A DNA stretch of 64,000 nucleotides from Allacma fusca. Taxonomy: Eukaryota > Arthropoda > Collembola > Symphypleona > Sminthuridae. This document shows, one piece after another, positions 2,829 to 58,912 of this stretch. The notes beneath the pieces are model-generated. The model saw nothing but the letters and a program-made list of their open reading frames with translations, did not search any database and was not told the origin of the DNA. Location of the stretch: positions 15,358,539-15,422,538 of the forward strand of contig OX359250.1 in assembly GCA_947179485.1 (NCBI GenBank), given 5' to 3'. Every line of letters begins with the position of its first letter. The stretch's first letter is position 1. A program made the position numbers and the translations under genes.

Positions 2829-3400
2829 CAAAGGTGGGCACATATCCTATATTTATGCATAAATATATGCAGATTTTTTATGCATGTTCGCACATTTTCC
2901 GAATATTTGTATGCAATATATGTAGGCTGCAAGTTTCTGCTAAAAAAATGTATGATATATGTATGCTGTGAATACTGTATGTACGAGTATGTATGTATGT
3001 ATAAAAGACCGGGAGATTTAGGTACGTATGCACCGTGTATGTTCAGCGAACTCCATCTGTATTTTCTTGGCATGGTCTGTGTCTATTGGTGTATTCGCAT
3101 TTGTAATTTCCTGCTGCAATGCAAACAATTTCTAGACGTTTTGACTGACACCTACGACACTAGAAATTAATATTTTTAAACTTAACCATCATAAATTGTA
3201 TTTACTTTTATAAAGGTTCATAACGTTCAACATACTTTTATAGGCACGTGTACATATATTTATGCATACATTTATTTATATGCTGCATATATGATGTATG
3301 ATTAAATTTCTGGACAAATTTATGTATGCAAAATATATGCTCTTTGTAAACTATAAAATGTATGTAGGATTTAGGATACGCAATTTTTTGCCCAGCTTTG
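2829..3400. mobile_element. Palindromic element with TATGCA/TATGTA arms (CAAAGGTG-type ends)
   Basis: The left end reads CAAAGGTGGGCACATATCC. The reverse complement of the right end reads CAAAGCTGGGC and later GTATCC, so the ends are imperfect inverted repeats resembling the CAAAGGTG ends of the TATAGGC family elsewhere in the window (13124, 54233, 56345). Both arms are packed with TATGCATA, ATATGCAG and TATGTATG words. No 8-bp target duplication was found. The right end abuts the GTCCC element. Confidence 0.5.
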
Positions 3401-3684
3401 GCCTAAAATCGAATGTCTTACATTCGGTGAAAGTGTTCACAGAATAGTTTACTCATGAGCATTAAAGCTGAAACGTTATCTGCGTTCTGCTATGTTTGCT
3501 CGTCCCGTCCCGTTATATACACGACCGAAAATCATGTCCCGTCCCGAATATAGTGGGGACAATTTTTTTTGTCCCCGTCCCGTCCCGAATACGACATGGG
3601 GACAATTATTTTGTCCCCGGGGACGTCCCGTCCCAGTCCGTCCAGTGTCCCGATGGGACGTTCCTGTCCCCGGCAGAAGCTCTA
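3401..3684. mobile_element. GTCCC/GGGAC oligomer-arm element, copy 1
   Basis: It begins CCTAAAATCG followed by a perfect 7-bp hairpin (CGAATGT-ctt-ACATTCG). It continues into an array of GTCCCGTCCCG that switches to the complementary GGGAC sense in the middle, and ends GCAGAAGCTCTA. The same left part and array occur at 10971-11208, which fixes it as a repeat family. The right end (TAGAGCTTCT on the other strand) resembles the TAGAGCTTCC end of the GTTCCG element. No target duplication was identified. Confidence 0.55.
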
Positions 3685-4040
3685 TTAAAATCTAAAGTTC
3701 AAAACCGACTTCAAAAAATGAGGTTTTAAAAAAACCAAAACGAAGATTACAATTGAACTGAACTTGAAGATTCTTTTATGGCTCTACAAATTGAAAAACT
3801 AGCATTTGATATGGGAGGAATTAGATAATAATGAACGAAACAAAGCATCTCCAGTATAAAAAAGCTGCAGCTACAATACCATGGGTACAAAAATAAGCCA
3901 AGGCATCCAAAAATTCCAAAGCTTCTGAAAACATCGTTTTGTCTGCACGTGATTACCCGGCAATGAATCTTAAGTATCCTACGTATGCATAATATATTAT
4001 TCGCCCACACGTAGAACCGAGATGCACAAATTAATTCATT
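3685..4040. other. AT-rich non-coding spacer
   Basis: No gene or element end is visible. It contains a short AAAACCGACTTCAAAAAATG stretch. The next satellite starts gradually near 4,040-4,090. Confidence 0.3.
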
Positions 4041-4309
4041 ATTATCTTATTCATAAAATATCAAATGCTAGTTTTTCAGTTCAGTTTTGCGGTTTAAAAA
4101 TTGCAATACCGTTTTTGCAGATTATGTTAGCAGTTTCAAAAGTGCATGTTAAGTTATGCAGTTTAAATAATGCTGTTTAAGTTTCGCAGTTTTAAATGTG
4201 CACGTTCAGTTTCACAGTCTCAAATTTGCATCTTCTGTTTCGCAATTTCAGTTTTGCACTTTCAGTTTCACAGTCTCAAATTTGCATCTTCCGTTTCGCA
4301 ATTTCAGTT

Positions 4310-5000
4310 TTGCAGTTTCAGTTTTGCAGTTTCAGTTTTGCAGTTTCAGTTTTGCAGTTTCAATTTTGCAGTTTCAGTTTTGCAGTTTCAGTTTTGCAGT
4401 TTCAATTTTGCAGTTTCAGTTTTGCAGTTTCAGTTTTGCAGTTTCAATTTTGCAGTTTCAGTTTTGCAGTTTCAGTTTTGCAGTTTCAATTTTGCAGTTT
4501 CAATTTTGCAGTTTCAGTTTTGCAGTTTCAATTTTGCAGTTTCAATTTTGCAGTTTCAGTTTTGCAGTTTCAGTTTCAGTTTTGCAGTTTCAGTTTTGCA
4601 GTTTCAGTTTTGCAGTTTCAGTTTTGCAGTTTCAGTTTTGCAGTTTCAGTTTTGCAGTTTCAGTTTTGCAGTTTCAGTTTTGCAGTTTCAGTTTTGCAGT
4701 TTCAGTTTTGCAGTTTCAGTTTTGCAGTTTCAGTTTTGCAGTTTCAGTTTTGCAGTTTCAGTTTTGCAGTTTCAGTTTTGCAGTTTCAGTTTTGCAGTTT
4801 CAGTTTTGCAGTTTCAGTTTTGCAGTTTCAGTTTTGCAGTTTCAGTTTTGCAGTTTCAGTTTTGCAGTTTCAGTTTTGCAGTTTCAGTTTTGCAGTTTCA
4901 GTTTTGCAGTTTCAGTTTCAGTTTTGCAGTTTCAGTTTCAGTTTTGCAGTTTCAGTTTTGCAGTTTCAGCTTCAGTTTTGCAGTTTCAGTTTTGCAGTTT
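4310..5000. repeat. Homogeneous 14-bp tandem block
   Basis: Around fifty near-identical copies of GTTTTGCAGTTTCA. The main variant has CAATTTTG for CAGTTTTG, and occasional short insertions restart the phase (CAGTTTCAGTTTCAG near 4,572, 4,915 and 4,935). Confidence 0.9.
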
Positions 5001-8150: not shown

Positions 8151-8550
8151 AGGTCTGCAGTTTGAAAATGGCATTTTCAGTTAAGCAGTTTCAAAATTGC
8201 ATTTTCAGTTAAGCAGTTTCAAAATTGCATTTTCAGGTCTGCAGTTTGAAAATGGCATTTTCAGTTATGCATATTCAAAATCGCATTGCTGTTGCAGTCA
8301 GAGCTATGCAGTATTTTCAAATTCAGTATTTTAAAATACGTATTTTCAGACCACAAAGTATTTTGTATTTAAAAGTTGTAAGCAGTAAGCAAGTATTTTG
8401 TACATATTATTTTGAGAGCCAGGAAGTACAAAAGTATTTGGTATTTACTTACTTTTAATGAAATATGAAATGTAATTCAAATAAAGTATTTTGCTCAAAA
8501 TATTTTTCGCTGGTATGATTTCTGATTTTGACGCTGTATATAGCTTATAC

Positions 8551-9480
8551 CATACTTGCAGTTTTGGCCCAAAGTTCAAATTCAGTTCCATTCACATCCC
8601 CAAATTTTTCGTGCCGTTCAGTTCAGTTCAGTTCCCCTTGTCGAAAGCCTGTCGTAGTTCAGTTCAATTCACTACGTACTTTCCAGTCGTTACGTTCAGT
8701 TCAGTTCACCCTTTCAGTATGTTTTCAAAGTTCAATTCAATTCATTATTAACTTTTCGGTCGTTCAGTTCAGTTCGCTTTATCAGTCATTAGCGAGCCAA
8801 TTAGTTCAAGTCATTTATGGTAAATTTAAGTGGCATTAAGTAATATTTTTATGGCTGACTTTGAACTTTGACTCAATTTTTCGCTAAATGACTGATTAGA
8901 TAACTACTTTCAAATCTCCGGTGTTTTGAAAGCAGTATTGACTTTGAGCTTTCTGGTAAACGACCAATCTAAGAAAACCAAGCTATTCCAAGTTAATAAA
9001 TCGTATAAATATGCTATACGCTTATTGTGGGTTTTAATTCATACGATTTCGTCTAAAATGTGCCAAATATGCGTAATTAAATGTAACATACCGACTTTCT
9101 TGTAAATAACTATTTCTTGAATTTGTAATTTAATGTCATTGTAATGAATAGTCAAAAACCAGAATGCTAGTTTTTGAGATTAAAACTATAAAATATATGG
9201 CCATGCAATTTAGAGATAGATAATATTCGTGTGGTGTTCACGAATATAAAAGTTTATATTCAAACCTGGACTCTTAAGTTCAATTCAGTTCAGTTTGTGT
9301 TACTTGAACGTACGATGAACGTTCGTTCACATTCATAATAAGTTCTGCTGAGTTCAATTCAAATTCATTCAATCAAAATTTTGCATTTCACTAGTTCGTT
9401 CAAGTTCATTCAAAAACAATGAAAATATTGGCTAGTTCAGTTCAGTTCATAACTTTATGAACTGAACGACTGCAAGTATG
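8551..9480. mobile_element. TTCAG-arm hAT-like fold-back element
   Basis: The ends CATACTTGCAG and CTGCAAGTATG are perfect 11-bp inverted repeats, flanked by the exact 8-bp duplication GCTTATAC (8543-8550 and 9481-9488). The left arm is GTTCAGTTCAGTTC-type. The right arm (9280-9470) carries the same words, partly in the opposite sense. The centre is AT-rich with no coding potential. Confidence 0.85.
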
Positions 9481-9590
9481 GCTTATACGATGTGCAATGT
9501 CAGTGAAAATTCCCTTTTACACATTGGAATAACATACGTTGGAATGAATCCCTTGGCTACATCAAACATGTTCAGATTGTCGATACTGTA

Positions 9591-9670
9591 TATCGTCGTT
9601 GAAGAGGCGAAATGGTCTACGTGGGCATGGTTTTTACAGCATAGACCATTTTGCCTCTTCAGCAACAATA
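9591..9670. mobile_element. Short AAAATGGTC palindrome, copy 2
   Basis: This 80-bp hairpin runs from TATCGTCGTTGAAGAGGCGA to the near-perfect complement TGCCTCTTCAGCAACAATA. It shares its ends and the AAATGGTCTAC word with the 301-bp copy at 19750-20050. Confidence 0.7.
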
Positions 9671-10297
9671 TTTAAGATACGCCGAAGACGAACACCTACT
9701 CGATTTAATTTTCAGTTACTAGCCTTTTTTATAATAATTATTCCGAAAATACATTTATTTACTAATAAATACAAATTTCATATTAATCTGTTACTTCATT
9801 AACAGTCAAAACGACTTTAAATATAATTATAATGGACTGACCTATTCGGCAACCGTTGAACAATTTGTTACTACACATGTCTTATATGCAGCCTTTGAAG
9901 TGACTGTTTTAAAAAGTTTGTTCTAGAAATCAAAAATAGTGAGGATTAGGTGAGTATTTTAAGAAAAGTATTGTATTTAAAATACAGTATTTTGTATTTG
10001 AGTATTTTAAATTTTCTACCAAGTATTATATTTTTATTTTTATTTTAGCAATGTAGCCTGAGGATATTTACTTTGTATTTTGTATTTTACATATTTTAAT
10101 TCAGGTATTTTATTTTGTATTTTGGCATCGAAGACCAAGTATTTTGCATAGCTCTGCCTATCACTCAAGTTTCGACTCCGTTTTTAAATACTGTGTATGA
10201 TTACTTACTTCAGTTATGATTATAAATATATGTATATTTTGTCTTTATTCGGTCTAATGATAAAATCTTATAATCATAATTATACAACCATTATGAA

Positions 10298-10931
10298 TAT
10301 AGCTCCTTATCGAGTTCGAGTATACCGGCGAGTATCGAGTACGAGTTCGAGTCGAGTACGGTCAAATTTTTGTGAATACTCGATACTTGAAATGGGTTTC
10401 GAGTACGGGTAACGATTTTTCACATACTTACGAGTACGAGTATCAAACGAGTACGAGTCCAATAAAAATACTCATAAGGGTTATCGAGTTCGAGTTCGAG
10501 TACCACATGCTCAATATACGAGTACGCGTACACGTGCACACAAGTGTTGCAAACTTTTGAATTTCCAGTAAAGAGACGAAGGCGCTAATATTAAATTAAA
10601 TTAAAATGACTTATTGGATCCTAAGAGAATGTCCATGGCTGGAGAAAAATCACTGTTCAATTGTGGTCTTGTTATTATTAAATACTCGAGTATGAAGACT
10701 CGAGTCACGGCACGAGTACGAGTACGGGATTTCGGTATTTACAGTTCCGTACTCGCGAGTATGAAACAAGTTCGGGTTCTGAACTGGAACTCGGTCGCTT
10801 ATTTCAAGTATTTTCCTGAGTACTCGTATATGTGGCGAGTACGAGTACCTTGGATTGGAGTCCATACTCGATGCTTCGATTTCGAGTACGAGGTACGGTT
10901 CCGCAAGGTAGTCACTCAATAAGGAGCTATA
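10298..10931. mobile_element. GAGTAC-arm hAT-like fold-back element, copy 1 (internally deleted)
   Basis: The ends are TATAGCTCCTTAT and ATAAGGAGCTATA, flanked by the exact 8-bp duplication ATTATGAA (10290-10297 and 10932-10939). The arms are runs of CGAGTACGAG/CGAGTTCGAG. The middle shares only its edges with the 843-bp copy at 40028, so this 634-bp copy differs by an internal deletion or replacement around 10590-10650. No transposase frame is present. Confidence 0.9.
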
Positions 10932-10970: not shown

Positions 10971-11208
10971 TTTCTACAACCTAAAATCGAATGTCTTACA
11001 TTCGGTGAAATAGTACTCACAGAATAGTTCACTCGTGAGCATTAAAAGCTGAAACGTTATCCTTGTTCTGCTATGCTTGCTTGTCCCGTCCCGTTATACA
11101 CGCGACCAAAAATCATGTCCCGTCCCGAATACGACATGGAGACAATTATTTTGGCCCCGGTCCGTCCAGTTTTCCGACGGGACGTCCCCGTCCCCTTTAA
11201 AAGCTATA
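10971..11208. mobile_element. GTCCC/GGGAC oligomer-arm element, copy 2
   Basis: It starts CCTAAAATCG with the same CGAATGT hairpin as copy 1, keeps the CACAGAATAGTT and GCTGAAACGTTATC segments, then the GTCCCG array, and ends near AAAGCTATA. The right flank ACTACACC and left flank TCTACAAC agree at 6 of 8 positions, a weak hint of a decayed 8-bp duplication. Confidence 0.55.
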
Positions 11209-11622: not shown

Positions 11623-12297
11623 CAGGGTTGGGGTTTTTTTTGGTTTTTTTCAAAAAAACCAAACAACCAGGTTTTTTTGGTTTAAACCTGGTTTAAAATT
11701 AATGGTTTAAAATTTCAGGTGTTTGGTTTATAAACCAAACACCTGAAATTTTAATATTTTCAATCCAAAATGCTTATATTTCGTCGTGCACAAAACTTGT
11801 GCAGTTACTGTGATTTTGTGCAGTCAAACTTTAGTGAAGTAAATAATACTACTAGCTTTTAGTCTTGTACATTTAGAAATTCGGAATCGTTTGTAGAATG
11901 AAAAACGCCAAACTTAAGTTTATGCTGCAAAGTTATCGTTAAAATTATATCAAAATTATTAAATATTTAACACTTTGTGATACTTACTGAGTTTGGGAAA
12001 TAAGTAAATTTGTTCAAATTCACATGTTTTTGTATATTAATGAATGTTTTGGATTGAAAATTTGTTTAAACCAAAAAAACCTGGTTTAAACCAAAAAAAC
12101 CCGGTTTAAACCAAAAAAACCTGGTTGTTTGGTTTTTTTGAAAAAAACCAAAAAAACCCCCAACCCTGGTTTAAACCATTGGTTTTTATAAAAAAACCTT
12201 TTGGTTTAAACCATTGGTTTTTATAAAAAAACCTTTTGGTTTAAACCATGGTTTAAACCATGGTTTAAATCATTTGGTTTAAACCAAACCAACCCTG
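11623..12297. mobile_element. GGTTTAAACC-arm hAT-like fold-back element
   Basis: The ends CAGGGTTGG and CCAACCCTG are of classic hAT form and are flanked by the exact 8-bp duplication ACCTGTAC (11615-11622 and 12298-12305). The arms are repeats of AAACCAGGTTT and GGTTTAAACCAAAAAAACC. The uninterrupted target survives elsewhere in the window (CTGCTACCTGTAAGAGATAA near 17,200), which confirms the insertion point. Confidence 0.92.
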
Positions 12298-13115: not shown

Positions 13116-13147
13116 CCTTATTACAAAGGTGTCCACCTATCCTATTT

Positions 13148-14002
13148 ATAGGCCTATATATAGGATAAAAATAGGCAGGATGCAAAATCCAAGTAATTAT
13201 AAGTAGTAAAATAGGGTGCACTAATTACAGAATCCCAATGAAATGATGTCATAGGACAATTGTGACCCACTGAGGTCTATATTTTGAAAATTCCTGGAAT
13301 TTTGGACGACGAATAAAGTTAAAATATTTTTGTCATTTCTACGCAGCTGTCCGAAATTGTTTTCCAATTCTCGAATACGTGGCGGAATTCCTTCAAATGT
13401 GTCTTGTGTCATATAGGCATTTATATATTATAATATGTATTTAATAATAATAACATTGCGCAGTATAGCAATTGACCCCAAGATTGCGATAAAAAGTAAG
13501 GTCACTGAATTTTTCCTAAAGGCGGAATAATTAGGTTTATCGATGGTTTTCACTACCCTCTCGTAATCCGTTGGATTTGGTTTTATTGAAATCGGACAGG
13601 TACTTTAGAAATTATTAAGGAAATTGGAATTTTTCCAATTTAGGCTGCGGATTTGTCAATCCGCTGATTTGAATTTTGAATAGAAAGCAAATGCATGAGA
13701 TATATTCATTGTTCCGTACACAACTCTACCCCATAAGTAAGTTGGTGCCAGTGTTATTGAAATCGGGTTGGAACTTTAGGTGCTATTAAGTTATAATGGA
13801 ATTTCTCTAAATTACCCCGTCCGTACATATTTTTATAGTATTTTTGCCTTCTCCCTGTGCATGGTCTAAAGCTGAATATTTTCCGAAAATAAAAAATGTA
13901 AATACAATTTACAATTTACATAGGCCTATATATAGGATAAAAATAGGCAGGATGCAAAATCCAAGTAATTATAAGTAGTAAAATAGGGTGCACTAATTAC
14001 AG
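13148..14002. repeat. 83-bp direct repeats around a 689-bp inverted copy of sequence at 57.3-57.9 kb
   Basis: The 83 bp at 13148-13230 recur, apparently without change, at 13920-14002 (both start ATAGGCCTATATATAGGAT and end CTAATTACAG). The segment between them, 13231-13919, is the reverse complement of about 57,215-57,903, including the stretch that reads MTQDTFEGIPPRIRELENN on the + strand there. The direct repeat belongs to the TATAGGC element arm. Confidence 0.8.
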
Positions 14003-14497
14003 CTAAAATTAATCCTATATTATATGTAGGAGCTGCAAGAGTTCACTTTTTATTTAGGAACAAGGTAGGCAGTTTGCGAAGGTAAAAATAGGTATATTTA
14101 ATAATCTATTGACAAATTTGTCAAGCAATTATTTGATTTAACCTTAAAATAAATCTCAAAAATATTCTTCAAATACGTGACATTTTAGTAGTTTGATTTT
14201 TTTCATGTGTAACGATTGCACGTACATATATAGATGATTTTTAGTTAAAAAAGCCTTTATAGGCTAAAAATAGGTCTTTATAGGCTAAAATATAGGCCTT
14301 TATAGGCTAAAATATAGGCCTTTATAGGCTAAAATATAGGCCTTTATAGGCTAAAATATAGGCAGAAACATTACAGGAGTATATATGTAGGCAAATAGGT
14401 AGGCAATTTATTTTTGATAAATAATGTAGGTTAATATGTAGGGAAGGCAAAGCTGCAAAAAATATGTAGTATTTTAGGTAGGCTAAACCTTTTGGGC

Positions 14498-16401
14498 TAG
14501 TGCCCCGCATGGGTACAAAAATGTTGTACCTGGACCTGAACCTGTACCTGAATCATGGGTACATGGATTTTTTGAACCTATACCCGTACCTGTACCTGAA
14601 TACCTGGGTTCAATTTTCCTGAACCTGTACCTGTACTCAAACTAAATCAGGAGTACCTGTACCTGAAAAGTACCCGTACCCAAAAAGTACCCAAAAAAGT
14701 ACCTGTACCCGGGTATATTTTAAAAGTACCTGAACCTACCCGGGTATTTTCCATTGTACTAATTTAAAGGATTACCAAATATTTTACACGAAATAAAAAA
14801 TTTAAATATCTGCGACCAAGACATTTTGACTTAATAAATTTATTTATTAGATTACATATATTTTTATTATTTATTCTTCGAAAGAATGACTAAGTACTGG
14901 AATTATCAGTGGCTATAAATGATTACATAAAGGTTGAAAAGTATAATAGATAACAAAATCTACGATATAAATAAGTTCAATGCAACAATACAAATGCAGT
15001 GTAATATTTTCTAAACGTTCAATAATGGCGAGAAATTAAACGATTAAGAATTTGTTTTGCACCCTGCAATTGCTTTTGCAATGGAAAACATTTTTTAGAT
15101 TCAAACTCCTCAGATTTTAACTTCAGCCAAGCTTTGAAACAAAAACATTTCCTACCGTAACTCCAAACTTATATAAGCGTTTATGCGTCAGAAGTAGTGC
15201 TCCGCATGGGTACAAAAATGTTGTACCTGTACCTGAACCTGTACCTGAATCATGGGTGCATGGATTTTTTGAACCTATACCCGTACCTGTACCTGAATAC
15301 CCGGGTTCAATTTTCCTGAACCTGTACCTGTACTCAAACCAAATCAGGAGTACCTGTACCTGAAAAGTACCTGTACCCAAAAAGTACCTGTACCCAAAAA
15401 GTACCCAAAAAAGTACCTGTACCCGGGTATTTTCCATTGTACAAATTTAAAGGATTACCAAATATTTTATACGAAATAAAAAATTAAAATATCTGCGACC
15501 AAGGCATTTTGACTCAATAAATTTATTTATCAGATTAGATATATTTTGATTATTTATTCTTCTAAAGAATGACTAAGTACTGGAATTATCAGTGGCTAAA
15601 AATGATTACATAAAGGTTAAAAAGGATAATAGGTAGCAAAATCTACGACATAAATAAGTTCAATCCAACAATACAAATGCAGTGTAATATTTTCTAAACG
15701 TTCAATAATGGCGAGAAATTGAACGACTAAGAATTTGTTTTGCCCCCTGCAATTGCTTTTGCAATGGAAAACATTTTTTTAGATTCAAACTCCTCAGATT
15801 TTAACTTCAGCCAAGCTTTGAAACAAAAACATTTCCTACCGTAACTCCACTCTTATATAAGCGTTTATGTGTCAGAAGATCTGGGCCATAGGAGAAGGCT
15901 CGCTCAATCTTAGATCTCTGTTCTTTAGCAGTTCCAGGAACTGATAAAAAATCTCTGGTCATTCCAGCTAATGCTGGGTAACTAGCCACGTGTTCCTATA
16001 CGGTGGAATTAGTTTTCCTGACTGAGCTTATACGTATAAATTTTAACGTAAAATGTTTCAAGGTCAAAAATTCGGAGGAGTTTTTAAAGCTCAACAACAC
16101 CTTTACAGGCGTTACTTGGAAATTATTATTGACTGAAAAGTACCTGAAAGTTCAGGTATTTTACATTCAGGTTCAGGTACTTACCCAGTGCGTACCCGTA
16201 CCTGATGGGTTTATACCCAAAAGATTACTTTCTGTACCTGTACCCATACCTGAACCTGAACCTGAATTTTCAGGTATCTAACGACTGAACCTGAACCTGT
16301 ACCCAAATTGGATGGGTACAAGAAGTATGTACCTGATACGTACCTGTACCTGAACCTGTACCCAAATACCCGGGTAAAACCTGTACCCATGAGGGGCACT
16401 A
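14498..16401. mobile_element. GTACCTG-arm hAT-like fold-back element, self-nested
   Basis: The ends TAGTGCCCCGCATGGGTAC and the complement of GTACCCATGAGGGGCACTA match at 18 of 19 positions, flanked by the exact duplication TTTTGGGC (14490-14497 and 16402-16409). The arms are GTACCTGTACCTGAACCTG arrays. The first 697 bp (14498-15194) is repeated as 15195-15878, and the second copy starts exactly at a terminal TAGTG right after the 8-mer GTCAGAAG. The rest (15879-16401) is a single right half. Confidence 0.88.
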
Positions 16402-16424
16402 TTTTGGGCACCTTTGCCTTATTA

Positions 16425-19282: not shown

Positions 19283-19430
19283 TAGGGGTGAGTATAACGA
19301 GACAACGAGACGAGAATCTCATTTATCTCGCTCTTTATTCATCAACGAGACAGTACGAGACATCTCGCTTTATTTAACGAGAATATCGTTTGCAATTAAA
19401 TCTTGTTGAAGCCCATATCAAACTGAAAAA
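19283..19430. mobile_element. TCTCGTT-arm element, left-end fragment
   Basis: It starts TAGGGGTGAGTATAACGAGA and follows the complete element at 55054 almost base for base to ATATCAAACTGAAAAA, then returns to background sequence. The right half and right flank are missing. Confidence 0.75.
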
Positions 19431-37582: not shown

Positions 37583-38774
37583 CAGTGGTCGTCACGGGAA
37601 CGGGTAAAACCCGGGTACATGGGAACGGGAACGAGTACAGGAACGGGTACGGGAACAAATATTTTGTTCCCAGCCAGTTTGGGTACGGGAACGGGAACAC
37701 ACTCAAGTGGACCCAATCACCGGGAACAGGAAGAGGAGTGGGAACAGGAACAGAGATTTTCAATTTGTTCCCGTTCCCATCGGGAACGGGTACGGTCTAC
37801 GCATGATCCCGTTCCCATACCTATTGTTCCCGGGCTCGAGTGGGTACTTTTACCATCTTCTAGGAACACACTCAAAATTGATCTTGGAAGACTTAATAGT
37901 ACTTATGTAAACAATTCAATTTGTATATTCCATTGTATTCTTTTGTTCCTGCAATTTCTACACACATATCCTTGCCTTAAAGATAATGATGTTAGAACTC
38001 CTTTTTCAGTACAACTGAGGTATTTTCTAGAATAATTCTATAAATTTAAAATAATGAATATTGAAATAATTATTATTAGTTTATTCTTTTTTTTTGTAAG
38101 TTTTACTGTTAATGTTATTTCAAATAAGACTAACAAAGGGAAACTAATCCGTGCTGGCATATATTTTTCAGATATTGTGTGTATGCAGAAAATTATCTAT
38201 GGGCCAACAATGATCTTAAATATTAAGTACCGTTTTGAAATCCTCGTCAACATTCAATTTTTATTGTTGGAGAAGCAACATCACTGCTCCATTCGTTGTT
38301 GCATCCTTTCCCAGTATGGCATTTTAAAGTGTTGATATTCGTTCTACTCGGTATATAATCTCTGAAGATTTAAACAATTAGTTATTACGCTATTGTTTGC
38401 TATAGAGGTGCGTTTAACCGCCCTGCACATTGTATGTTTATAACTGCAAAAGGAATGGTTTGGTAGTTAAAAAAATTTTAATGATAATTTTTACCACATT
38501 TTGTAAGTACAGCACGACCTGGACCCGGGAACGGGACCGGGAACACTAGCTGTGGGAACGGGTACGGGTCCAGAACATTTTAAATTTCTGGGTACGGGAA
38601 CAGGAACAGGTCCGGGAAAGAATTTTTATTAAATTCATGGGAACGGGTACCTAAAATACTGTTCCCACTATCACGGGAACGGGTCCGGGTACGGGAACAC
38701 TTAAGGGGAGTACCCATTCAGTGGGAACACGAACGGGAACGGGAACAAACTTTTTGTACCCATGACGACCACTG
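37583..38774. mobile_element. GGGAACGGGTAC-arm hAT-like fold-back element
   Basis: Perfect 12-bp ends CAGTGGTCGTCA and TGACGACCACTG are flanked by the exact duplication TTCCTGAC (37575-37582 and 38775-38782). The left arm is GGGAACGGGAACGGGTAC and switches to GTTCCCGTTCCC. The right arm (38520-38770) repeats the same words. The centre is AT-rich. An empty site is visible near 61,411 (AAATCCTGACTAATAAAAAA). Confidence 0.93.
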
Positions 38775-40027: not shown

Positions 40028-40870
40028 TATAGCTCCTTATCGAGTTCGAGTATACCGGCGAGTATCGAGTACGAGTACGAGTTCGAGTCGAGTACGGTCA
40101 AATTTTTGTGAATACTCGATACTTGAAATGGGTTTCGAGTACGGGTAACGATTTTTCACATACTTACGAGTACGAGTATCAAACGAGTACGAGTCCAATA
40201 AAAATACTCATAAGGGTTATCGAGTTCAAGTTCGAGTACCACATGCTCAATATACGAGTACGCGTACACGTGCACACAAGTGTTGCAAACTTTTGAATTT
40301 CCAGTAAAGCGACGAAGTCGCTAATATGAAATTGTCACAAAAAATCGTTGTATCCACCAGTCACGACTCTCTCAGGTTTCAAAGTATAATCTCTCTCCAT
40401 TTAGTACATTACTATTGAAGTTAAAACAATTAGTTAATTCTAATGGCTGAAAATATTAACACAAACTCTTCGACAAGCGTAGTTGAAGTGATTGCAAATT
40501 TACAGAGACACTTTACCAACTGCATGTTCAATTTAAAATTTTGGGGGAATTATTTGTGAGAAATGAAATGAATCTAAAAACAATCACTGTTCAATTGTGG
40601 TCTTGTTATTATTAAATACTCGAGTATGAAGACTCGAGTCACGGCACGAGTACGAGTACGGGATTTCGGTATTTACAGTTCCGTACTCGCGAGTATGAAA
40701 CAAGTTCGGGTTCTGAACTGGAACTCTGTCGCTTATTTTAAGTATTTTCCTGAGTACTCGTATATGTGGCGAGTACGAGTACTTTGGATTGGAGTCCATA
40801 CTCGATGCTTCGATTTCGAGTACGAGTTCGAGTACGGTTCCGCAAGGTAATCACTCAATAAGGAGCTATA
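40028..40870. mobile_element. GAGTAC-arm hAT-like fold-back element, copy 2 (longest)
   Basis: The ends are TATAGCTCCTTAT and ATAAGGAGCTATA, flanked by the exact duplication CCTACAAT (40020-40027 and 40871-40878). Removing the element restores the V-module phrase GCAATTTACCTACAATGGAG, seen intact near 11,445, so the insertion is confirmed by internal empty sites. The arms agree closely with copy 1. The 260-bp centre (40,325-40,585) is mostly absent from copy 1. Confidence 0.93.
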
Positions 40871-42620: not shown

Positions 42621-43625
42621 TAGGGAATGTCGATTGAAAATGCCCTCGTATATATGCCCGCCAAGCTGAATATGCCCAAAATGCCCGCCAACGTGCCATA
42701 TTTTTGGGCACGTTGGCACATTGGGAAAATGCCCTAAATTGGGCATTTTCGACAGGGCATATTCGGCATTTTGGGCATTTTCAGTAGGGAATATTTATTA
42801 TTTTTTGTAGACAAAACTCAGCAATATAGTCAAGTCAAAAAAGCCACTATTCACTATTAAAATGAAATATTCTAAAGAAGGCCTACATGTCAATTTTGCT
42901 CATATATTTTATTTCAAAGTATACTTCATGTGTATCATACAATCGCCTTATATTGAATTGCAGAATGCAATACTGTTGCATTTTGTATAACGTTAATCAG
43001 AATGCTCTAGTTCTTCTCGCGTGTACGGTTCTTCAATGATAAATGCGTCCTCAAAAAAATCCTCCCCATCAGAACTTTTATTTGTGTAACTTTCAACCTC
43101 TGCAGCCGTTGCTCAGCCTTCGGCTGAAATAATATCGGCATAAATAAAATTTCTCATATCAACTTTTTCTAACAAGTGCTTCGAGGTTGCAGAGTTTATT
43201 GCATTCCAAAATGTGAGTTATGTTTGACTACTAAATTAAAAATAATTCGGGAACAATTTCAATGTTGAACTGTGAAACCACCCGTCAATTAGCAACAATG
43301 CAATGGTTAGAAGTTTCAAAACTTTTACAATTGTCTACTGACCAGATTTATTTACCTGTATGTTAAAACGGCGAGTAATCGTTTTTAGTTATAACAATGT
43401 GTGCTGGGCAGTTTAACGTCTGGAAAAGGTAATCGGCCGGAAAATTGGAGTTGAATATGCCCAAAATGCCAAATATGCCCAGGAATGAAAATGCCCAAAA
43501 TGCCCGTGCCGAATGTGCCCAAAATCTACGTATTTGCCCAAAGTTGAAAATGCCCAAAATGCCCTGGCATTTTGGGCAGGCATGATGCCCAATATGCCAT
43601 GGCATTTTCAAATCGACAATCCCTA
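42621..43625. mobile_element. GGGCATTTT-arm hAT-like fold-back element
   Basis: The ends TAGGGAATGTCGATTGAAAA and the complement TAGGGATTGTCGATTTGAAA are flanked by the exact duplication ACTCTTAC (42613-42620 and 43626-43633). The arms repeat TGCCCAAAATGCCC and GGGCATTTTGGGCAT. The empty-site form is near 28,820 (CCACAACTCTGTTACCC). Confidence 0.93.
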
Positions 43626-44035: not shown

Positions 44036-44099
44036 TATCTGTATAGTGCGCCCACTGTTTCAGTTCGTTTCAGAAAATTTGTTTCGTTTCAGTTTGGAC

Positions 44100-45022
44100 T
44101 ACAGCTCCTCACGAGTAAGAGTAGATACTCGAGTTTCGAGTTCGAGTACGAGTACGGGTCGAGTACGGTATCAACTTAAATTGGTACTTGTACTCGTCGG
44201 TCCAGTATCCGTTTTCGTACTCGTCGGTCCAGTATCCGTTTTCGTACTCGAACTTGAGTATATTTCTAACGAGTATCAGAGCGAGTACGAGTACGTTCAA
44301 AGTACTTGAACCAAAGTACGAGTTCGGGACATAAATTCAAAAGTACTTGAACCCGTACTTGGATTTACATTTGATACTCGAGTAATTTCCTCCAGCACAA
44401 AGTCCACATCCATATTTCCTTGATTACAAAAAAAAGTTGTTGTTATTCCGAAGCAAAAAAGGAAAAGCGGTTAAATTCAAAATTACTCCGAATAGCATGA
44501 AACGTTACACCTACAGCGTAAGTTACAGTATTATTTACTGTATTGTTACACCTCTGCATTGAGTACTACTGTAGTTACTAATTGTAAGTATTTACCTATC
44601 GCCGTAAAATATAATGGAACAGGAGAATAGGGCAGAATTAATGAAGGTTAGAATGACATTGACCTGACTGAAGAGAATCCAGTCGATTTGACTGGCAGAA
44701 TCAAATCTTGATCTATTGTTCATCGGCATTTTAATCTCGTTGGAGAAAATTTTCATTGCAAACACTGTTCGTAAGTTGCAGTTACAAATTCTTCTTAGTT
44801 GAATCTACTATTTGTTTTCTGTCTATATCTGTTTAACAAAAAAAACATCTAAAAAATTTCTTTTCGGTGTACTTGATACTCGAGTACGGTTCGAGTACGA
44901 GTTCAAGTACGGGTCGGTCGGTATATACGTTTTATACTCGTAAGTAATTTGACCCGACAATTCGAGTACGGTTCCAAGTACGAGTACGGTATGGATAACT
45001 ACTCGACCCGTAAGGAGCTATA
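44100..45022. mobile_element. GAGTAC-arm hAT-like fold-back element, copy 3 (diverged subfamily)
   Basis: The ends TACAGCTCCTCACGAG and TAAGGAGCTATA are flanked by the exact duplication GTTTGGAC (44092-44099 and 45023-45030). The left arm matches the fragment at 58738-58912 much better than copies 1 and 2. A 33-bp stretch (TACTCGTCGGTCCAGTATCC...) is repeated directly in the left arm. Confidence 0.9.
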
Positions 45023-45030
45023 GTTTGGAC

Positions 45031-45430
45031 GCTGAAATGAACCGAATTTATGGTTTCGTTTCAGTTCACAAAACAGTGTTTCAGTTGGTTTCAGTTTGCT
45101 CGGTGAACTGAAATGAAACGCAAAACGATCGTTTCAGGCGCGAAAATTTAAAATGCTTGACATTAAATACTTTATGACCCGGTATTTCCTGCCTAGGTTT
45201 ACTATGACGTCAGGCATACTTCTAAATGTAAATCTAGCCTTGGGTGGCTCGTGTAACTCCAATCATTTTCCATGTTCAAAGCAGGATCCAACATGACCCA
45301 CAAAGTATGTCGTTAACCCCGTGGTGGTAAGTTAAGTTATAATTTTCACTTCCAAAACTTCAACATTCAAGACGTAATGAAATTACACCTAGTGATTTTA
45401 CGTAAATTATACAGATTTAGATATATTATA
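45031..45430. other. Interior of the GTTTCAG element
   Basis: GTTTCAGTTCACAAAACAG-type arm sequence to about 45,140, then AT-rich non-coding DNA. No gene. Confidence 0.5.
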
Positions 45431-51320: not shown

Positions 51321-51675
51321 TCACTAAATATTAATTAGTTATTTTTTAATTCAGGATTCAATGGTTTCCATAAACTGCCCAAAGACGATTTCACCGCTGT
51401 ATTCTATAATATATAGTCCACATGGCCAAGAAATATAAGCATGCAGCAGTAAAATTTTCATGACACGTGCATTTTTCCCGCACAATTATATTGCATTTGA
51501 AACGTTTGAAACGCGTTTCAGTGAGACTGTTTCGTTTTGTTTCAGTCTCAACTGAAACGTTCGTTTCAGCTAAATTTGAAACTGAACAGAAATTTATATG
51601 AAACGAACTGACACAAACTGAAACGAAACGGAAATTTTTGGTCAGGAACGAAACACTGGGCGTCCTATATCTGTA

Positions 51676-54232: not shown

Positions 54233-55937
54233 CAAAGATGCACATATGTGTCCGCATTCCTATAACCTTCCTACAAATGGGAACGGGAACTAAGAATACA
54301 TCCTACATATCCTATTTAAAGTAATGGAATGGAAAACTCTCGATCCCCCTATATATAGATATAGGATTGTCAAGCCTGCTCAAGCTGCCTACCTATTTCC
54401 TATATAGGATACAATAGCAGCATACATGCCTATTCCTATCCTATAAATTTCATTCTGTGTATGAACAGCGATCCTTTTGCGTCCGCACATTACTTATGTA
54501 TACTCCTTAAATCAGTTCAAAAATCCAACTATCTCAGGAAGGTAATTACAATGTGTTAAAGTGTAAGTAACATATTAATAATAATTGGTAATTTCCGCAT
54601 TTTAATCAAAATTATTACCAAGCAATAAGTTTATCAATTAATTTGTTCATTCATCTTTTAACCACCTCCGACTCGACATAATAGTCTGTATGGAAAATTA
54701 AACATTGCTCAATCATATCAAAATGAAAAAACTAAGCAGCAATCAGAAAAAGAAAATTAAATATTTTAAAGCTGTTGAGAAGAATGAACCGCAACAATAC
54801 TAATGAATACTCATTCTGAAACCGCAGAAACCACACTGAATTTACAACGTTGAAAGAGCCTGAAAATACTCCAGAATCGCCCAAAAATTGTGCATGTCTT
54901 GTTAGTAAATTATGTATTACCCACGGCTCCTCCAGCGAAAATCGTATCGCAATGGTTTCCACCTAACAAAGGTAAGACATTCATAATTTTTGGGCTATTC
55001 TGGAGTGCGCTCAGTCTTGCTGACGTCATCATCATGGGTGGGCCCGTCACTACTAGGGGTGAGTATAACGAGACAACGAGACGAGAATCTCGTTTATCTC
55101 GCTCTTTATTCATCAACGAGACAGTACGATACATCTCGCTTTATTTAACGAGAATATCGTTTGCAATTAAATCTTATTGAAGCCCATATCAAACTAAAAA
55201 ATGGGGTGGTTTGTTATACCATTTTGTAAATTAAGACATTTTGCAGTTCTTGGTGCTAGCTTTTATTGCGCTGGGTCTTCATTAATTCTTTTCAAGGCTT
55301 CCCTGTTTTCACATTTTATGGTCCAAACCCAAAAATAAATATTTTTCGCCTTGGGATTATTCCGATTTGTGAAATTAAATAAATGTGTATGTTCTTTCAT
55401 CAAAATTTGTGCAGGCAACTATTAAAGTGCATATATTTCAACACAAAAACCATATTTTTGCCCTGTCTCGTTTGTCTCGTGCGTTGCTTATTCTCGCTAC
55501 TCTCGTTCTCAAAATATCTCGTTCTCGTATTTTTTTCAGAAACGAGAACGAGACAAACGAGAATTTTAAAACCAGCGAGATACTCATCCCTAGTCACTAC
55601 ACTATTTGATGACAGGAGGTGATGGCGTTATGAGGGTGTCTTCTTAAAACATACAAAATTTTGATGACATCATTAATGGACGCTCCCTTATCCGACATAC
55701 ATATACACTAAATCCGAGGATTCCTTCCTATATTTTAGGCAACATTTATATGAAACCAAGTCCTGCCTATATTCCTTTATACTTGCAGTACAAAACGTTG
55801 CCTATCCTATTCCTATTTTTGCACGCTGAATATTTCGATTACTATCCTATCCTACCTACATAAGAAGCTCGATTTTAATGCCTATCCTATTTATATGCCT
55901 ATAAGTCCTATCCTTCTAGGAAGGATGTGCACCTTTG
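54233..55937. mobile_element. TATAGGC-arm hAT-like element, copy 3 (diverged, with nested element)
   Basis: The left end CAAAGATGCACAT and the complement of the right end CAAAGGTGCACAT match at 12 of 13 positions, flanked by the exact duplication GTATCAAA (54225-54232 and 55938-55945). The arms carry CCTATTTAAAG, TATATAGATATAGGA, TTCCTATCCTAT and ATGCCTATAAGTCCTATCC. The TCTCGTT element lies inside. The rest is AT-rich without a gene. Confidence 0.85.
55054..55592. mobile_element. TCTCGTT-arm hAT-like fold-back element
   Basis: The ends TAGGGGTGAGTAT and the complement TAGGGATGAGTAT are flanked by the exact duplication GTCACTAC (55046-55053 and 55593-55600). The left arm is ACGAGACAACGAGACGAGA. 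The right arm (55,460-55,590) has GTCTCGTTTGTCTCG then ACGAGAACGAGAC. A left-end fragment of the same family is at 19283. Confidence 0.92.
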
Positions 55938-55945
55938 GTATCAAA

Positions 55946-56336
55946 TAAAATAAGCCTAGCTGAATTTCGATATAGTTAAATTATAAAAATAGCCAACATT
56001 TAAATTACAGCCTCAAACACCCACTTTGCCAGAAGGCTTATGGTTTTTTGAAATTGCGAAATTTATTCGAACTAAAGACTTACAATTAGTTGGGTGGTGA
56101 CTTCCGGTGCAAGAGTTTCAGACGGGTCCTGTTCCTGGTCTCTGCATTTCCTTGGTACGGTCAACTAAACTTTTCCAACACAATACTAAAACTGTCTTTA
56201 GAAGGAACGATCGCCAACTACACTTTGGCTCGACATAAAAAAGTAAACTGAGACTCCACAGTTAAACCTTATCTTCGAGTGAAAAAAGTGAAAGGGTACT
56301 TAAAGTTTTGGGAAGTTTTGGGGTCTTTCAGAAACA
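55946..56336 (+). repeat. G module, first half
   Basis: It starts TAAAATAAGCCTAGCTGAAT and includes GACTTCCGGTGCAAGAGTTT. It is interrupted at GAAATGAT by the next element. Confidence 0.55.
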
Positions 56337-56344
56337 GAAATGAT

Positions 56345-56976
56345 CAAAGGTTTCCAAAAGGTTTAGCCTACCTAAAATACTACATATTTTTTGCAGCTTT
56401 GCCTTCCCTACATATTAACCTACATTATTTATCAAAAATAAATTGCCTACCTATTTGCCTACATATATACTCCTGTAATGTTTCTGCCTATATTTTAGCC
56501 TATAAAGGCCTATATTTTAGCCTATAAAGGCCTGTATTTTAGCCTATAAAGGCCTATATTTTAGCCTATAAAGGCCTATTTTTTAGCCTATAAAGGCCTA
56601 TTTTTTAGCCTATAAAGGCTTTTTTAACTAAAAATCATCTATATATGTACGTGCAATCGTTACACATGAAAAAAATCAAACTACTAAAATGTCACGTATT
56701 TGAAGAATATTTTTGAGATTTATTTTAAGGTTAAATCAAATAATTGCTTGACAAATTTGTCAATAGATTATTAAATATGCCTATTTTTACCTTCGCAAAC
56801 TGCCTACCTTGTTCCTAAATAAAAAGTGAACTCTTGCAGCTCCTACATATAATATAGGATTAATTTTAGCTGTAATTAGTGCACCCTATTTTACTACCTA
56901 TAATTACTTGGATTTTGCATCCTGCCTATTTTTATCCTATATATAGGCCTATAAATAGGATAGGTGGACACCTTTG
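56345..56976. mobile_element. TATAGGC-arm hAT-like fold-back element, copy 2 (complete, 632 bp)
   Basis: The ends CAAAGGTTTCCAAAAGG and the complement CAAAGGTGTCCACC are flanked by the exact duplication GAAATGAT (56337-56344 and 56977-56984). It is the inverted counterpart of the uninterrupted parts of copy 1 (13124-14497) and is nearly identical over its length, including the GCCTATAAAGGCCTATATTTTA run. The empty site is seen near 17,995 and 60,245 (AAGCAAAAATGATTTTTCTT). Confidence 0.93.
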
Positions 56977-56984
56977 GAAATGAT

Positions 56985-58450
56985 TTTTTCACGAGAGTAG
57001 AGCACCCTGGACATATCCTGCCTTAGGCTTTAATGAAGGCGGATTTTCACCTGCTTGGAGTGTGTTTAGTCCTTTGAGCTCACTATCAGTTTGTCCTAAA
57101 TTTAACTTTATATATTTAATTTGCATATTTGAATTGATGAGGCTGAATTTGTATTTTCTGAGTAAATCTTGCTCTTTTCCGGAAGTTGTCGCAACTATGG
57201 ACGGGTCGTTTGGAAGTGCAATAAATTGTATTTACATTTTTTATTTTCGGAAAATATTCAGCTTTAGACCATGCACAGGGAGAAGGCAAAAATACTATAA
57301 AAATATGTACGGACGGGGTAATTTAGAGAAATTCCATTATAACTTAATAGCACCTAAAGCTCCAACCCGATTTCAATAACACTGGCACCAACTTACTTAT
57401 GGGGTAGAGTTGTGTACGGAACAATGAATATATCTCATGCATTTGCTTTCTATTCAAAATTCAAATCAGCGGATTGACAAATCCGCAGCCTAAATTGGAA
57501 AAATTCCAATTTCCTTAATAATTTCTAAAGTACCTGTCCGATTTCAATAAAACCAAATCCAACGGATTACGAGAGGGTAGTGAAAACCATCGATAAACCT
57601 AATTATTCCGCCTTTAGGAAAAATTCAGTGACCTTACTTTTTATCGCAATCTTGGGGTCAATTGCTATACTGCGCAATGTTATTATTATTAAATACATAT
57701 TATAATATATAAATGCCTATATGACACAAGACACATTTGAAGGAATTCCGCCACGTATTCGAGAATTGGAAAACAATTTCGGACAGCTGCGTAGAAATGA
57801 CAAAAATATTTTAACTTTATTCGTCGTCCAAAATTCCAGGAATTTTCAAAATATAGACCTCAGTGGGTCACAATTGTCCTATGACATCATTTCATTGGGA
57901 TTCATTTTTATCAAATGTCAACCGTCTGTCTCAAATATTGGGGCTACAACATCCAATAATGTGAGAAGCGTTATGAATTATTTCCATGGGTTTTTTTCAG
58001 GAAAGAAAGGTTTTCCTGGAAATTAAAGGAACGTAGTCAACCATCGAACAATTCTGAAATAAGAAATTAATATTCAAAAGCCCCTCAACTTCTCTGCTTT
58101 TGGTCTACAACCTCAGAGTGGAAACAGTTGAGGTCTAGGAATGGACAACATATTTTATTGAATACACAGCCATTGACAAAAATATTGACCTACGTTTCAG
58201 GAACTGATGAAAGATTTTGGCAAACTAGCTTACACTTGAGATAAAGAACATTCGAGTACAGGAAATTTCTTCCAACAAAATATTCTGCAGAACAGCGCTG
58301 CACTTCCGGTTCTTTTTTGAAGCAACTACCTTCTTGACATACCTATCAAAAATCGAATTTGTTACAAACGTTTTTTAAATTTTGACCATCAAGTCTTTTT
58401 AAAACTTTAAATATTGACATTTATTTTCCGTCCACCTGCTAAGCGCTTCG
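56985..58450 (+). repeat. Diverged complex repeat: G module end, source-like segment, S module tail
   Basis: The G module resumes (TTTCACGAGAGTAGAGCACC). From about 57,215 to 57,903 lies the segment found inverted inside the element at 13231-13919, including a 60-codon open stretch (MTQDTFEGIPPRIRELENN...). It continues into the S-module tail (GGATTCATTTTTATCAAATG, AATGTGAGAAGCGTTATGAA). TGCTAAGCGCTTCGG marks the next boundary. No complete gene. Confidence 0.5.
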
Positions 58451-58736
58451 GCGGGTCTAGAAAAGTTCCAAACACCAGACTAAAAAAAATTGGGACTTCC
58501 CCGACTCAAACAAGAAATTTCCCGACTACCATTTTTCCGACTGCGTCGATTTTTCCCGGCGACCCCGCCAGGGAAAATTCTAAAAAATTTCCGACTTCGC
58601 CGCGTTTTCCTGACGACCCCGCCAGCCAAACTTACAAACATTTGCCTACTTCCCCGGTATCTAAAATCCTCGACTATGACGGGTCACTTCCCCGACTAAC
58701 AGGGTTCGGAGGTTAGGGAACTTTTTCCAGACCCGC
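58451..58736. mobile_element. TTCCCGACT-arm palindromic element
   Basis: The ends GCGGGTCTAGAAAAGTTCC and the complement GCGGGTCTGGAAAAAGTTCC are inverted repeats. The interior repeats ACTTCCCCGACT, TTTCCCGACT and TTTCCGACTGCG. The flanks do not match, so the target duplication is lost or the copy is rearranged with the neighbouring GAGTAC fragment. Confidence 0.55.
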
Positions 58737-58737
58737 T

Positions 58738-58912
58738 TTGAACGTACTCGTACTCGCTCAGATACTCATTAGAAATTACACTCAAGTTCGAGTACGAAAA
58801 CGGAAACTCGACCGACGAGTACAAGTACCAATTTAAGTTGATACCGTACTCGACCCGTACTCGTACTCGAACTCGAAACTCGAGTATCTACTCGTACTCG
58901 TGAGGAGCTATT
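58738..58912. mobile_element. GAGTAC-arm element, one-arm fragment
   Basis: The reverse complement of this piece follows the left arm of copy 3 (44100) from TAGCTCCTCACGAGTACGAG to GTACGTTCAAAG, where the neighbouring element starts. Only one terminus is present, so the copy is truncated. Confidence 0.75.

Follow-up and report, generated by a model that had tools for sequence, protein, structure and literature searches.

The window, that is, the whole 64-kb stretch of DNA analyzed here, was scanned for elements whose tips are inverted copies of each other and which are flanked by a perfect 8-bp target duplication. Of the 15 hits, two (2862-3260, within the TATGCA-rich element, and 8365-9985, within the TATTTTG-rich region) were set aside as local low-complexity products. 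The remaining thirteen complete elements (Table 1) confirm the count of thirteen complete copies in the first-pass annotation, and ten first-order Markov windows used as a control gave 0-2 hits each. The presence of the 8-bp duplication in 13/13 listed elements is true by construction of the scan. Nine word families have at least one complete, duplication-bounded copy, and GAGTAC, TATAGGC, and TCTCGTT have additional copies or fragments inside the window. The elements measure 539-1904 bp (about 0.5-1.9 kb) without inserts and are longer with inserts, and no intact transposase frame was noticed in them.

Table 1. Elements, fragments, and word-rich stretches in the window
Feature	Position	Strand	Remarks
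TTCAG-family element	8551..9480		TSD GCTTATAC, tip CATACTTGCAG, without the hAT G at position 5
GAGTAC-family element a	10298..10931		TSD ATTATGAA, tip TATAGCTCCT
GGTTTAAACC-family element	11623..12297		TSD ACCTGTAC, tip CAGGGTTGG; strong palindrome; empty paralogous sites
TATAGGC-family element a	13124..16416		TSD CCTTATTA, tip CAAAGGTG; nested GTACCTG element and 0.7-kb insert inside
GTACCTG-family element	14498..16401		TSD TTTTGGGC, tip TAGTGCCCC; 27 exact words; internal tandem duplication
Probable hAT transposase C-terminal dimerisation-domain remnant	15810..15995	-	PF05699, E 0.01, 16.1 bits vs cutoff 21.4
GTTCCG-family element	27556..28531		TSD ATCCCAAG, tip TAGAGCTTCC
GGGAACGGGTAC-family element	37583..38774		TSD TTCCTGAC, tip CAGTGGTCGTCA; empty paralogous sites
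GAGTAC-family element b	40028..40870		TSD CCTACAAT; empty paralogous site
GGGCATTTT-family element	42621..43625		TSD ACTCTTAC, tip TAGGGAATGTCGAT; empty paralogous site, imperfect
GAGTAC-family element c	44100..45022		TSD GTTTGGAC; surrounded by GTTTCAG words
TATAGGC-family element b	54233..55937		TSD GTATCAAA; word closer to CCTATCC; host of TCTCGTT element; imperfect empty site
TCTCGTT-family element	55054..55592		TSD GTCACTAC, tip TAGGG[GA]TGAGTAT; word strand opposite between arms
TATAGGC-family element c	56345..56976		TSD GAAATGAT, tip CAAAGGTG
GAGTAC-family fragment, one-ended	58736..58912	-	83% identity to left end of element c
TCTCGTT-family fragment, one-ended	19283..19430	+	97% identity to 55054-55201
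TATTTTG-rich element	8299..10156		12-bp tips CAGAGCTATGCA at both ends; no matching TSD; host of TTCAG element
Probable TATGCA element	2829..3400		Tips CAAAGGTGGGCA / CAAAGCTGGGCA; TSD not found
GTCCC-word fragment	3402..3684		Single hAT-like tip TAGAGCTTC
Second GTCCC-word fragment	10980..11208		Tip TATAGCTTT
GTTTCAG words flanking GAGTAC-c	44044..45140		Left hAT-like tip TAGTGCGCCCACTG; right end by eye; TSD not found
Second GTTTCAG-word stretch	51480..51667		Right-end hAT-like tip TAGGACGCCCAGTG; left end by eye; TSD not found

The tips of hAT elements start with C or T and have A at position 2 and G at position 5. This pattern, [CT]A..G, was found in 12 of the 13 elements, the exception being the TTCAG element. 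The duplications had A at position 7 in 11/13 cases (p about 1e-4), and pooling showed T2 plus A7 at 18/26 positions (p about 1e-4), which is the nTnnnnAn target pattern given for the hAT element Hermes in the available text of its reports (PMC2803484, PMC10368747). Related (paralogous) empty sites were found for 5/13 elements, some of them imperfect. The hAT origin proposed in the first-pass annotation is thus well supported by the 8-bp duplications, the [CT]A..G tips, and the nTnnnnAn preference, and a transposase remnant adds weak support.

The remnant is a probable one inside the GTACCTG element, the one sub-threshold Dimer_Tnp_hAT match obtained with 19 hand-chosen window peptides, a subset of the frames. 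Its E value of 0.01 is to be read beside values of 0.03 reached in the same scans by other peptides with unrelated families, to which all the remaining weak matches (E 0.03-0.3) belong; read through the frame break, the remnant scored E 0.016. For none of the families did these 19 peptides reveal a transposase gene or a BED domain. The remnant gave no homologue in a protein database search that did not reach full-length proteins, and NCBIfam gave none either. A comparison with Rfam yielded no match. Two matches of the remnant to a ribosomal protein among solved structures were at chance level (E 1.5) and were discarded. In viral contigs there were zero exact matches to two end patterns, and none of 13 stretches fitting remnant patterns was confirmed.

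We compared the word content of the elements with that of shuffled sequences. The family word occurs in 5-27 exact copies per element, whereas the highest count among 300 dinucleotide shuffles per element was 1-3 (12/13 elements; TATAGGC-a was left out of this test and of the coverage and core tests). At ≤1 mismatch, words covered 0.28-0.53 of the outer 179-250 bp in the 12 elements, with the three exceptions of TATAGGC-b (0.08/0.18), TATAGGC-c (0.11/0.13), and the left arm of the GGTTTAAACC element (0.04), while core coverage was 0.00-0.07 in 10/12 and higher in GAGTAC-a (0.17) and TATAGGC-c (0.11). When, as a cruder test, the commonest 6-mer was compared with 100 shuffles, the GGTTTAAACC element failed (27, with up to 36 in the shuffles), the GGGCATTTT element tied (16 against 16), and TATAGGC-a passed with an AT-rich 6-mer only, its family 6-mers reaching 16 against 17. 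Exact words numbered 172 in elements of their own family and 12 over the 72 other cells of a 9 × 9 table, whose diagonal is partly circular because the words were picked from the same elements. These counts bear out, for nine families, the earlier statement that each family has a different word. Words were rare in the first 11 bp (3/22 ends, 14.3 expected), and a fixed phase of the first word was rejected, since it lay at 12-16 in 10/22 ends where the null gives 8.3 (P = 0.28); both tests took 11 elements, with GAGTAC-a and TATAGGC-a left out. Words that lie near the ends, are family-exclusive, and are rare in the tip are as expected if different domains read tip and word.

The words had also been described as inverted between or within arms, and inversion between arms was not confirmed. 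At ≤1 mismatch, the same majority strand was found in both arms in six of the eight non-palindromic families, namely TTCAG, GAGTAC (3/3 copies), GTACCTG, GTTCCG (with a slim right-arm majority, 6:5), GGGAAC, and TATAGGC (b and c); the left arm of the GGGCATTTT element was tied, and TCTCGTT was the sole opposite family. Counting exact words, the arms were on the same strand in four families (TTCAG, GAGTAC, GTACCTG, and GGGAAC), one arm was tied in GTTCCG and in TATAGGC-c, and the arms were opposite in TCTCGTT and also, though from small numbers (1:2 vs 5:0), in GGGCATTTT. Inside the arms of GAGTAC-a the strand switched between 10/21 neighbouring words. Among the longest 25 of 597 inverted pairs, a large palindrome across the arms was present only in the GGTTTAAACC element (74 nt, 97%), and the GGGCATTTT element had a 29-nt pair spanning its arms. 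Because the words keep largely to a single strand across the two arms, the term fold-back in its classical sense suits GGTTTAAACC only, and as a general architecture it was not supported.

Copies of the same family were aligned. In GAGTAC, elements b and c share their first 71 bp and, outside these, no more than short word-bearing pieces, and the left-end match of a and c covers 34 bp. Past bp 71 the left arms of a and c keep 7 and 8 exact CGAGTA words; their gap-rich alignment there has 163 columns at 0.80 identity, compared with 0.70-0.78 in six random pairs, so the loss of homology past bp 71 is not clear-cut. The idea that words are better conserved than spacers was not supported by the changed columns of close copies (words vs spacers: a/b, 0/147 vs 9/440; c/d, 2/71 vs 4/102; GTCCC, 6/54 vs 9/72; arms of the GTACCTG duplication, 4/107 vs 6/122). 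For TATAGGC a/c, changes were more frequent in word columns (4/110) than in spacer columns (0/466).

The window is likely to contain at least nine nonautonomous families of the hAT superfamily, with tips of about 10-12 bp and family-specific arrays read by each family's own transposase. The sequence shows that next to such a tip, in most cases at either end of the element, lies a dense and irregular array of a 6-10-bp word particular to the family. The catalytic core of the transposase would grip the tip, and the word would be a putative site for the BED-type zinc finger of the same enzyme, which an autonomous relative would encode at another locus. Many weak word sites could let a multimeric transposase find and pair the right ends, in the manner of Ac, Hermes, and Herves, and the word would prevent co-resident families from being mobilised by one another's enzymes. 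The arrays probably grew by local word duplication, which would account for the mainly one-strand orientation. The proposed role of the words as transposase-binding sites is consistent with their subterminal position, their family specificity, and published hAT biology. Counting against this array model are the same-strand words in both arms, unlike what a symmetric synaptic complex predicts, the TTCAG tip without G5, and the absence of a fixed first-word phase, where the left end of Hermes is reported to be strictly phased.

Rather unlikely, in our estimate, is the explanation that the words are by-products of short-period slippage or unequal exchange beside the tip, most copies having no role in binding and only one or two proximal words mattering. 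The commonest same-strand word spacing of 5-6 bp in TTCAG, GAGTAC, GTACCTG, GTTCCG, and GGGAAC would fit it, as would the local tandem runs in some arms, the mainly one-strand arms, and word columns not clearly better kept than spacers. The Hermes authors likewise consider auxiliary internal transposase binding unlikely to support transposition, although the requirement in cells is for about 220 terminal bp. On the other side, TRF coverage was zero in both arms for 6/11 elements, the strand switches within arms, as in GAGTAC-a, and the words cluster at the ends, largely keep out of the core, and remain family-exclusive. We regard as improbable the proposal that over-amplification of the arrays evolved as a tether or decoy, with which nonautonomous copies titrate transposase and outcompete the autonomous element: up to 27 exact copies per element (partly through internal duplication) contrast with the three required 5' AAACGG hexamers given for Ac in the text available, but the autonomous partner may bear equally long arrays, because the remnant beside the array in the GTACCTG element suggests so.

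That the arms are hairpins or host-protein sites for silencing or chromatin, and not transposase sites, seems very improbable. Of 10 elements tested, 9 folded more strongly as single strands than did their 12 shuffles (z -4.4 to -23), with 16 background stretches at z -3.2 to +3.2; against hairpins, the arm-spanning pairs are confined to GGTTTAAACC and GGGCATTTT among the longest 25 of 597, and a host protein does not readily explain a different word per transposon family. P and Merlin are other superfamilies with 8-bp duplications, and there is a small chance that some of the families belong to one of them. The TTCAG tip CATACTTGCAG violates [CT]A..G, and the P-superfamily element Galileo has repetitive arms according to the text available; against this, 12/13 elements have the hAT tip and the Hermes target pattern emerges when the duplications are pooled. 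Galileo, in the P superfamily, has a 7-bp duplication and a P-type transposase. The window elements have duplications of 8 bp, not 7, and no THAP domain was found among the 19 scanned peptides (a subset of frames).

That hAT transposases bind arrays of words is already established for Ac, Herves, and Hermes, and the comparisons that follow draw on the accessible parts of the reports cited. In Ac, AAACGG hexamers bind transposase cooperatively (PMC3260210). Like the window elements, Ac/Ds has 11-bp tips and many such 6-bp words within the terminal 200 bp, and many nonautonomous derivatives retain both (PMC3260210). Unlike them, Ac/Ds has a single word in a single family, and the word is dispensable for the movement of some Ds1 elements, whereas the window combines nine or more words in one 64-kb stretch, their arrays extending very roughly 150-300 bp in each arm. 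Herves transposase binds a probe with four CGATTCAT copies, and its authors note that such sequences vary among hATs. Herves and Hermes share with the window a transposase-bound, family-specific subterminal motif (CG/AATTCAT; AAGT plus AT-rich) (PMC3143072, PMC10368747); they have few sites near the tip, strictly phased at the Hermes left end, whereas the window arrays are dense, irregular, and without fixed phase. Galileo/Foldback has long, internally repetitive arms with several THAP transposase-binding sites and a proposed role in specificity (PMC3688188), but it is a P-superfamily element with inverted arms of more than 1 kb, in contrast to the hAT-type ends and mainly direct words of the window. 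The ends of the Atlantic cod elements gadMor-hAT-1784/8043, which are hAT-derived nonautonomous MITEs, are tandem repeats (PMC12368964); these have a 167-169-bp unit and inverted ends of about 600 bp, with no short words in the text available. In Kat1, a domesticated hAT, the hexamer TGAATT occurs 6 times between two inverted ends (PMC4763223), but its polarity differs between the ends, and the window words have mostly the same polarity. A coral MITE (PMC2872659) was set aside because its report, as far as accessible, describes piggyBac-like elements.

The first-pass annotation knew of no description of such arrays as a system. The principle is in print for Ac, Herves, Hermes, Kat1, and the fold-back element Galileo, but no account of many co-resident families with such arms appeared among the best-ranked open-access literature matches, in the text available. 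What is unusual here is that nonautonomous hAT elements have long, diverse subterminal arrays, with so many words side by side. It is possible, though doubtful, that a hAT family radiation took place in one genome, in which tips stay alike (e.g. TATAGCTCC and TAGAGCTTC) while the finger-read word is repeatedly replaced; the result would be a natural finger-word library kept apart by specificity, with long arrays as multivalent surfaces for transposase capture. If each word is the site of its family's BED finger, this genome would offer many matched finger-word pairs within one machine type, and it would become testable how transposases switch DNA specificity, why co-resident families avoid cross-mobilisation, and whether longer arrays serve to raise affinity or to titrate the transposase.

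At least eleven families had been counted originally. Nine families stand with a complete, duplication-bounded copy; a relaxed local search of the regions with GTTTCAG, TATTTTG, GTCCC, TATGCA, TTCCCGACT, and TGTTTTGTTC words added no further element with a duplication, returning one match of the set-aside 2862 kind and two elements already listed. The 103 relaxed-search candidates in 4000-8600, of which 12 were listed, were rejected as a 4.1-kb tandem array matching itself. By eye, hAT-like tips can be seen at the TATTTTG, GTCCC, TATGCA, and GTTTCAG arrays.

The window was scanned for perfect 8-bp direct repeats around inverted 10-bp tips (at most one mismatch, 60-6000 bp spacing). This duplication and tip scan gave 15 matches, compared with 0-2 per window in ten first-order Markov windows. 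Two matches, one within a TATGCA-rich element and one within a TATTTTG-rich region, were set aside as local low complexity. The remaining 13 elements, the same number of complete copies as in the first-pass annotation, represent nine families, named here by their arm words: GAGTAC and TATAGGC have three copies each (suffixes a to c), and TTCAG, GGTTTAAACC, GTACCTG, GTTCCG, GGGAACGGGTAC, GGGCATTTT and TCTCGTT one complete copy each. Four of the 13 (TTCAG, GTACCTG, GAGTAC-c and TCTCGTT) are nested in other word-array elements or arrays.

Positions of elements and associated features in the window
Feature	Position	Detail
TATAGGC-a	13124-16416	
TATAGGC-b	54233-55937	
TATAGGC-c	56345-56976	
GTACCTG element	14498-16401	
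GTACCTG tandem copies	14498-15194 / 15195-15878	91.9% identical
hAT-domain stretch	15810-15995	minus strand
GGTTTAAACC element	11623-12297	
Palindrome in GGTTTAAACC element	11623-12168	
Matches set aside	2862-3260; 8365-9985	TATGCA-rich; TATTTTG-rich
Host sites of nested elements	8299-10156; 13124-16416; 44044-45140; 54233-55937	
Retroelement	30575-37380	735-bp terminal repeats
Pao-type frame	34478-36523	minus strand
Old diverged repeats	10000-31000; 37000-44000; 51000-63500	
682-bp segment	13230-13911	in region 13148-14002
Inverted counterpart of segment	57222-57903	99.85% identical
4.1-kb array	4152-8287	periods 14, 28, 83 bp
Palindromic stretches	9587-9673; 19748-20053	
39-bp unit	16815-17122	8 copies

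For the 12 elements counted (all but TATAGGC-a), the chosen word was present in 5-27 exact copies per element; across 300 dinucleotide shuffles of each, the highest count was 1-3. A blunter test using the commonest 6-mer failed in GGTTTAAACC and gave a tie in GGGCATTTT, and TATAGGC-a passed it only through an AT-rich 6-mer. With at most one mismatch, words covered 0.28-0.53 of the outer 179-250 bp on both sides of nine elements; coverage was lower in TATAGGC-b, TATAGGC-c and the GGTTTAAACC left arm. The cores showed coverage of 0.00-0.07 in 10 of 12 elements, the exceptions being GAGTAC-a (0.17) and TATAGGC-c (0.11). The arm words are family-exclusive: 172 exact words lay in own-family elements versus 12 across the other 72 cells of a family by word table, in which some words were cut by one to three bases or register-shifted relative to the word-count test. 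In 6 of 11 elements, TRF repeats left both arms wholly uncovered, and their highest cover was in the GGTTTAAACC right arm (0.61), followed by the TATAGGC-c left arm (0.45).

The tips of hAT elements fit [CT]A..G, and so did 12 of the 13 tips here. Position 7 of the pooled duplications was A in 11 of 13 (p ~1e-4), T2 and A7 occupied 18 of 26 positions (p ~1e-4), and G1/C8 was likewise enriched (12/26, p 0.0008, among 16 comparisons of this kind). The pooled duplications show the target pattern nTnnnnAn described for Hermes in the portions of the reports cited (PMC2803484, PMC10368747). A 62-residue stretch in the GTACCTG element had the hAT dimerisation domain as its only Pfam match (E 0.01, falling short of the curated cutoff), and read-through of a frame break brought no gain in Pfam (E 0.016). 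Other peptides in the same scans reached E 0.03 with unrelated families, yet hAT was the one family predicted beforehand, so this putative domain was given moderate weight.

Empty sites were sought by fusing the flanks with a single duplication copy and comparing them against the rest of the window. This comparison was workable because old, diverged repeats occur in the background; for 38% of the window, a further copy on the same strand lies elsewhere in it, a figure that includes retroelement terminal repeats and the element copies themselves. Related uninterrupted sites were found in the window for 5 of the 13 elements (GGTTTAAACC, GGGAACGGGTAC, GAGTAC-b, GGGCATTTT and TATAGGC-b), some carrying gaps or mismatches inside the duplication. 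The diverged repeats (~71-95% identity, offsets from hundreds of bases up to tens of kb) make up much of three stretches of background into which elements are inserted, and within-window comparison gave no evident single clear period. The retroelement, which we take to be of BEL/Pao type, has identical terminal repeats and two long open frames (683 and 1015 codons) and is apparently a young insertion. Its presumed Pao-type frame had one high-identity match (91% over 19% of the query), to a protein of Allacma fusca, a springtail; among 8000 candidates scored, the other 30 matches were 26-38% identical, the named ones being from insects, a scorpion and a fluke. As a lead, this points to that springtail or a relative as the probable source of the window.

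The words had been described as inverted between or within arms. Between arms this mostly did not hold: with at most one mismatch, the same strand was in the majority in both arms of TTCAG, GAGTAC, GTACCTG, GTTCCG (right arm 6:5), GGGAAC and TATAGGC (b, c), the GGGCATTTT left arm was tied, and TCTCGTT was the sole family with opposite arms. With exact words, GGGCATTTT also had opposite arms, on few counts, GTTCCG and TATAGGC-c were each tied in one arm, and the whole GTACCTG element had 26 plus versus 1 minus. Among the 25 longest of 597 inverted pairs, the only large arm-spanning pair in any of the 13 elements was in GGTTTAAACC, and a 29-nt pair joined the GGGCATTTT arms. There are nevertheless enough inverted pairs for folding, and hence 9 of 10 elements folded better than their shuffled versions (z -4.4 to -23; 12 shuffles each; GTACCTG, TATAGGC-a and TATAGGC-b left out); TATAGGC-c gave z -1.7, and 16 background stretches -3.2 to +3.2. 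A near-perfect palindrome in the GGTTTAAACC element is closed by a second tip-like sequence (CAGGGTTGGGGG, reading from 12168), and the 8-bp duplication matches only the outer end, 12297.

The working principle, word arrays bound by transposase, is already known. That at least nine hAT families reside together, each having long arms built of a word of its own, was not seen described among the top-listed papers of an open-access library with few subscription papers. As far as the cited texts go, Ac transposase binds cooperatively to AAACGG hexamers in the terminal 200 bp, three 5'-end copies being reported as required, and some Ds1 elements are mobile without them (PMC3260210). Herves transposase binds CG/AATTCAT, as well as a four-copy motif probe, and its authors state that such differing sequences ensure specificity (PMC3143072). 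Galileo arms hold several THAP sites, and specificity was proposed to come from multiple sites in internally repetitive arms (PMC3688188). The BED finger of Hermes recognises motifs of the AAGT type; at the left end, the first two fall in bp 11-27 (PMC10368747).

The elements here fit a scheme of repeated transposase sites in the arms. Of 22 ends (those of GAGTAC-a and TATAGGC-a excluded), 3 had a word inside the initial 11 bp, where 14.3 were expected, and words started shortly past this point, as they would if different domains read the tip and the arm word. A strict Hermes-like reading is disfavoured, since a fixed phase of the first word was not supported (first word at 12-16 in 10 of 22 ends, P 0.28) and, between close copies, words showed no clear gain in conservation over spacers, TATAGGC a/c showing the reverse. 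GAGTAC-b and GAGTAC-c matched along their first 71 bp, and outside that stretch they shared just short word-bearing pieces; past bp 71 of the left arm, GAGTAC-a had 7 and GAGTAC-c 8 CGAGTA words. These arms may have lost homology while the words stayed, which is suggestive only, because gapped alignment of a and c past bp 71 still gave 0.80 identity versus 0.70-0.78 for six random pairs. Distal words may be used, or they may be by-products of slippage.

Further features were also observed in the window. The left end and core of GTACCTG are duplicated in tandem, the second copy beginning at a tip-like sequence, which resembles a product of aberrant transposition or repair. The 682-bp segment in TATAGGC-a, an inverted copy of DNA that starts 246 bp outside TATAGGC-c, has an exact direct duplication of 83 bp at its flanks, which suggests either repair from a template or a recent rearrangement. 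The 4.1-kb array (AGTTTTGCAGTTTC; GCATTTTCAGTTTTGCAGTTTCAAAATT), most uniform by eye in its left part, adjoins the TATTTTG element; growth out of transposon arms is a possible origin, for which Tetris, in the part of the report cited, is named for comparison (PMC4079207). Two further stretches are palindromic and have TATCGTCGCTGAAGAGGCAAAATGG-like ends next to TA; they bear GCAAAATGGTCTAC in their arms by eye and are possibly a further, non-hAT-like word-array element. The 39-bp unit begins TGACCAATATTGACCATTCTAAGGCC.
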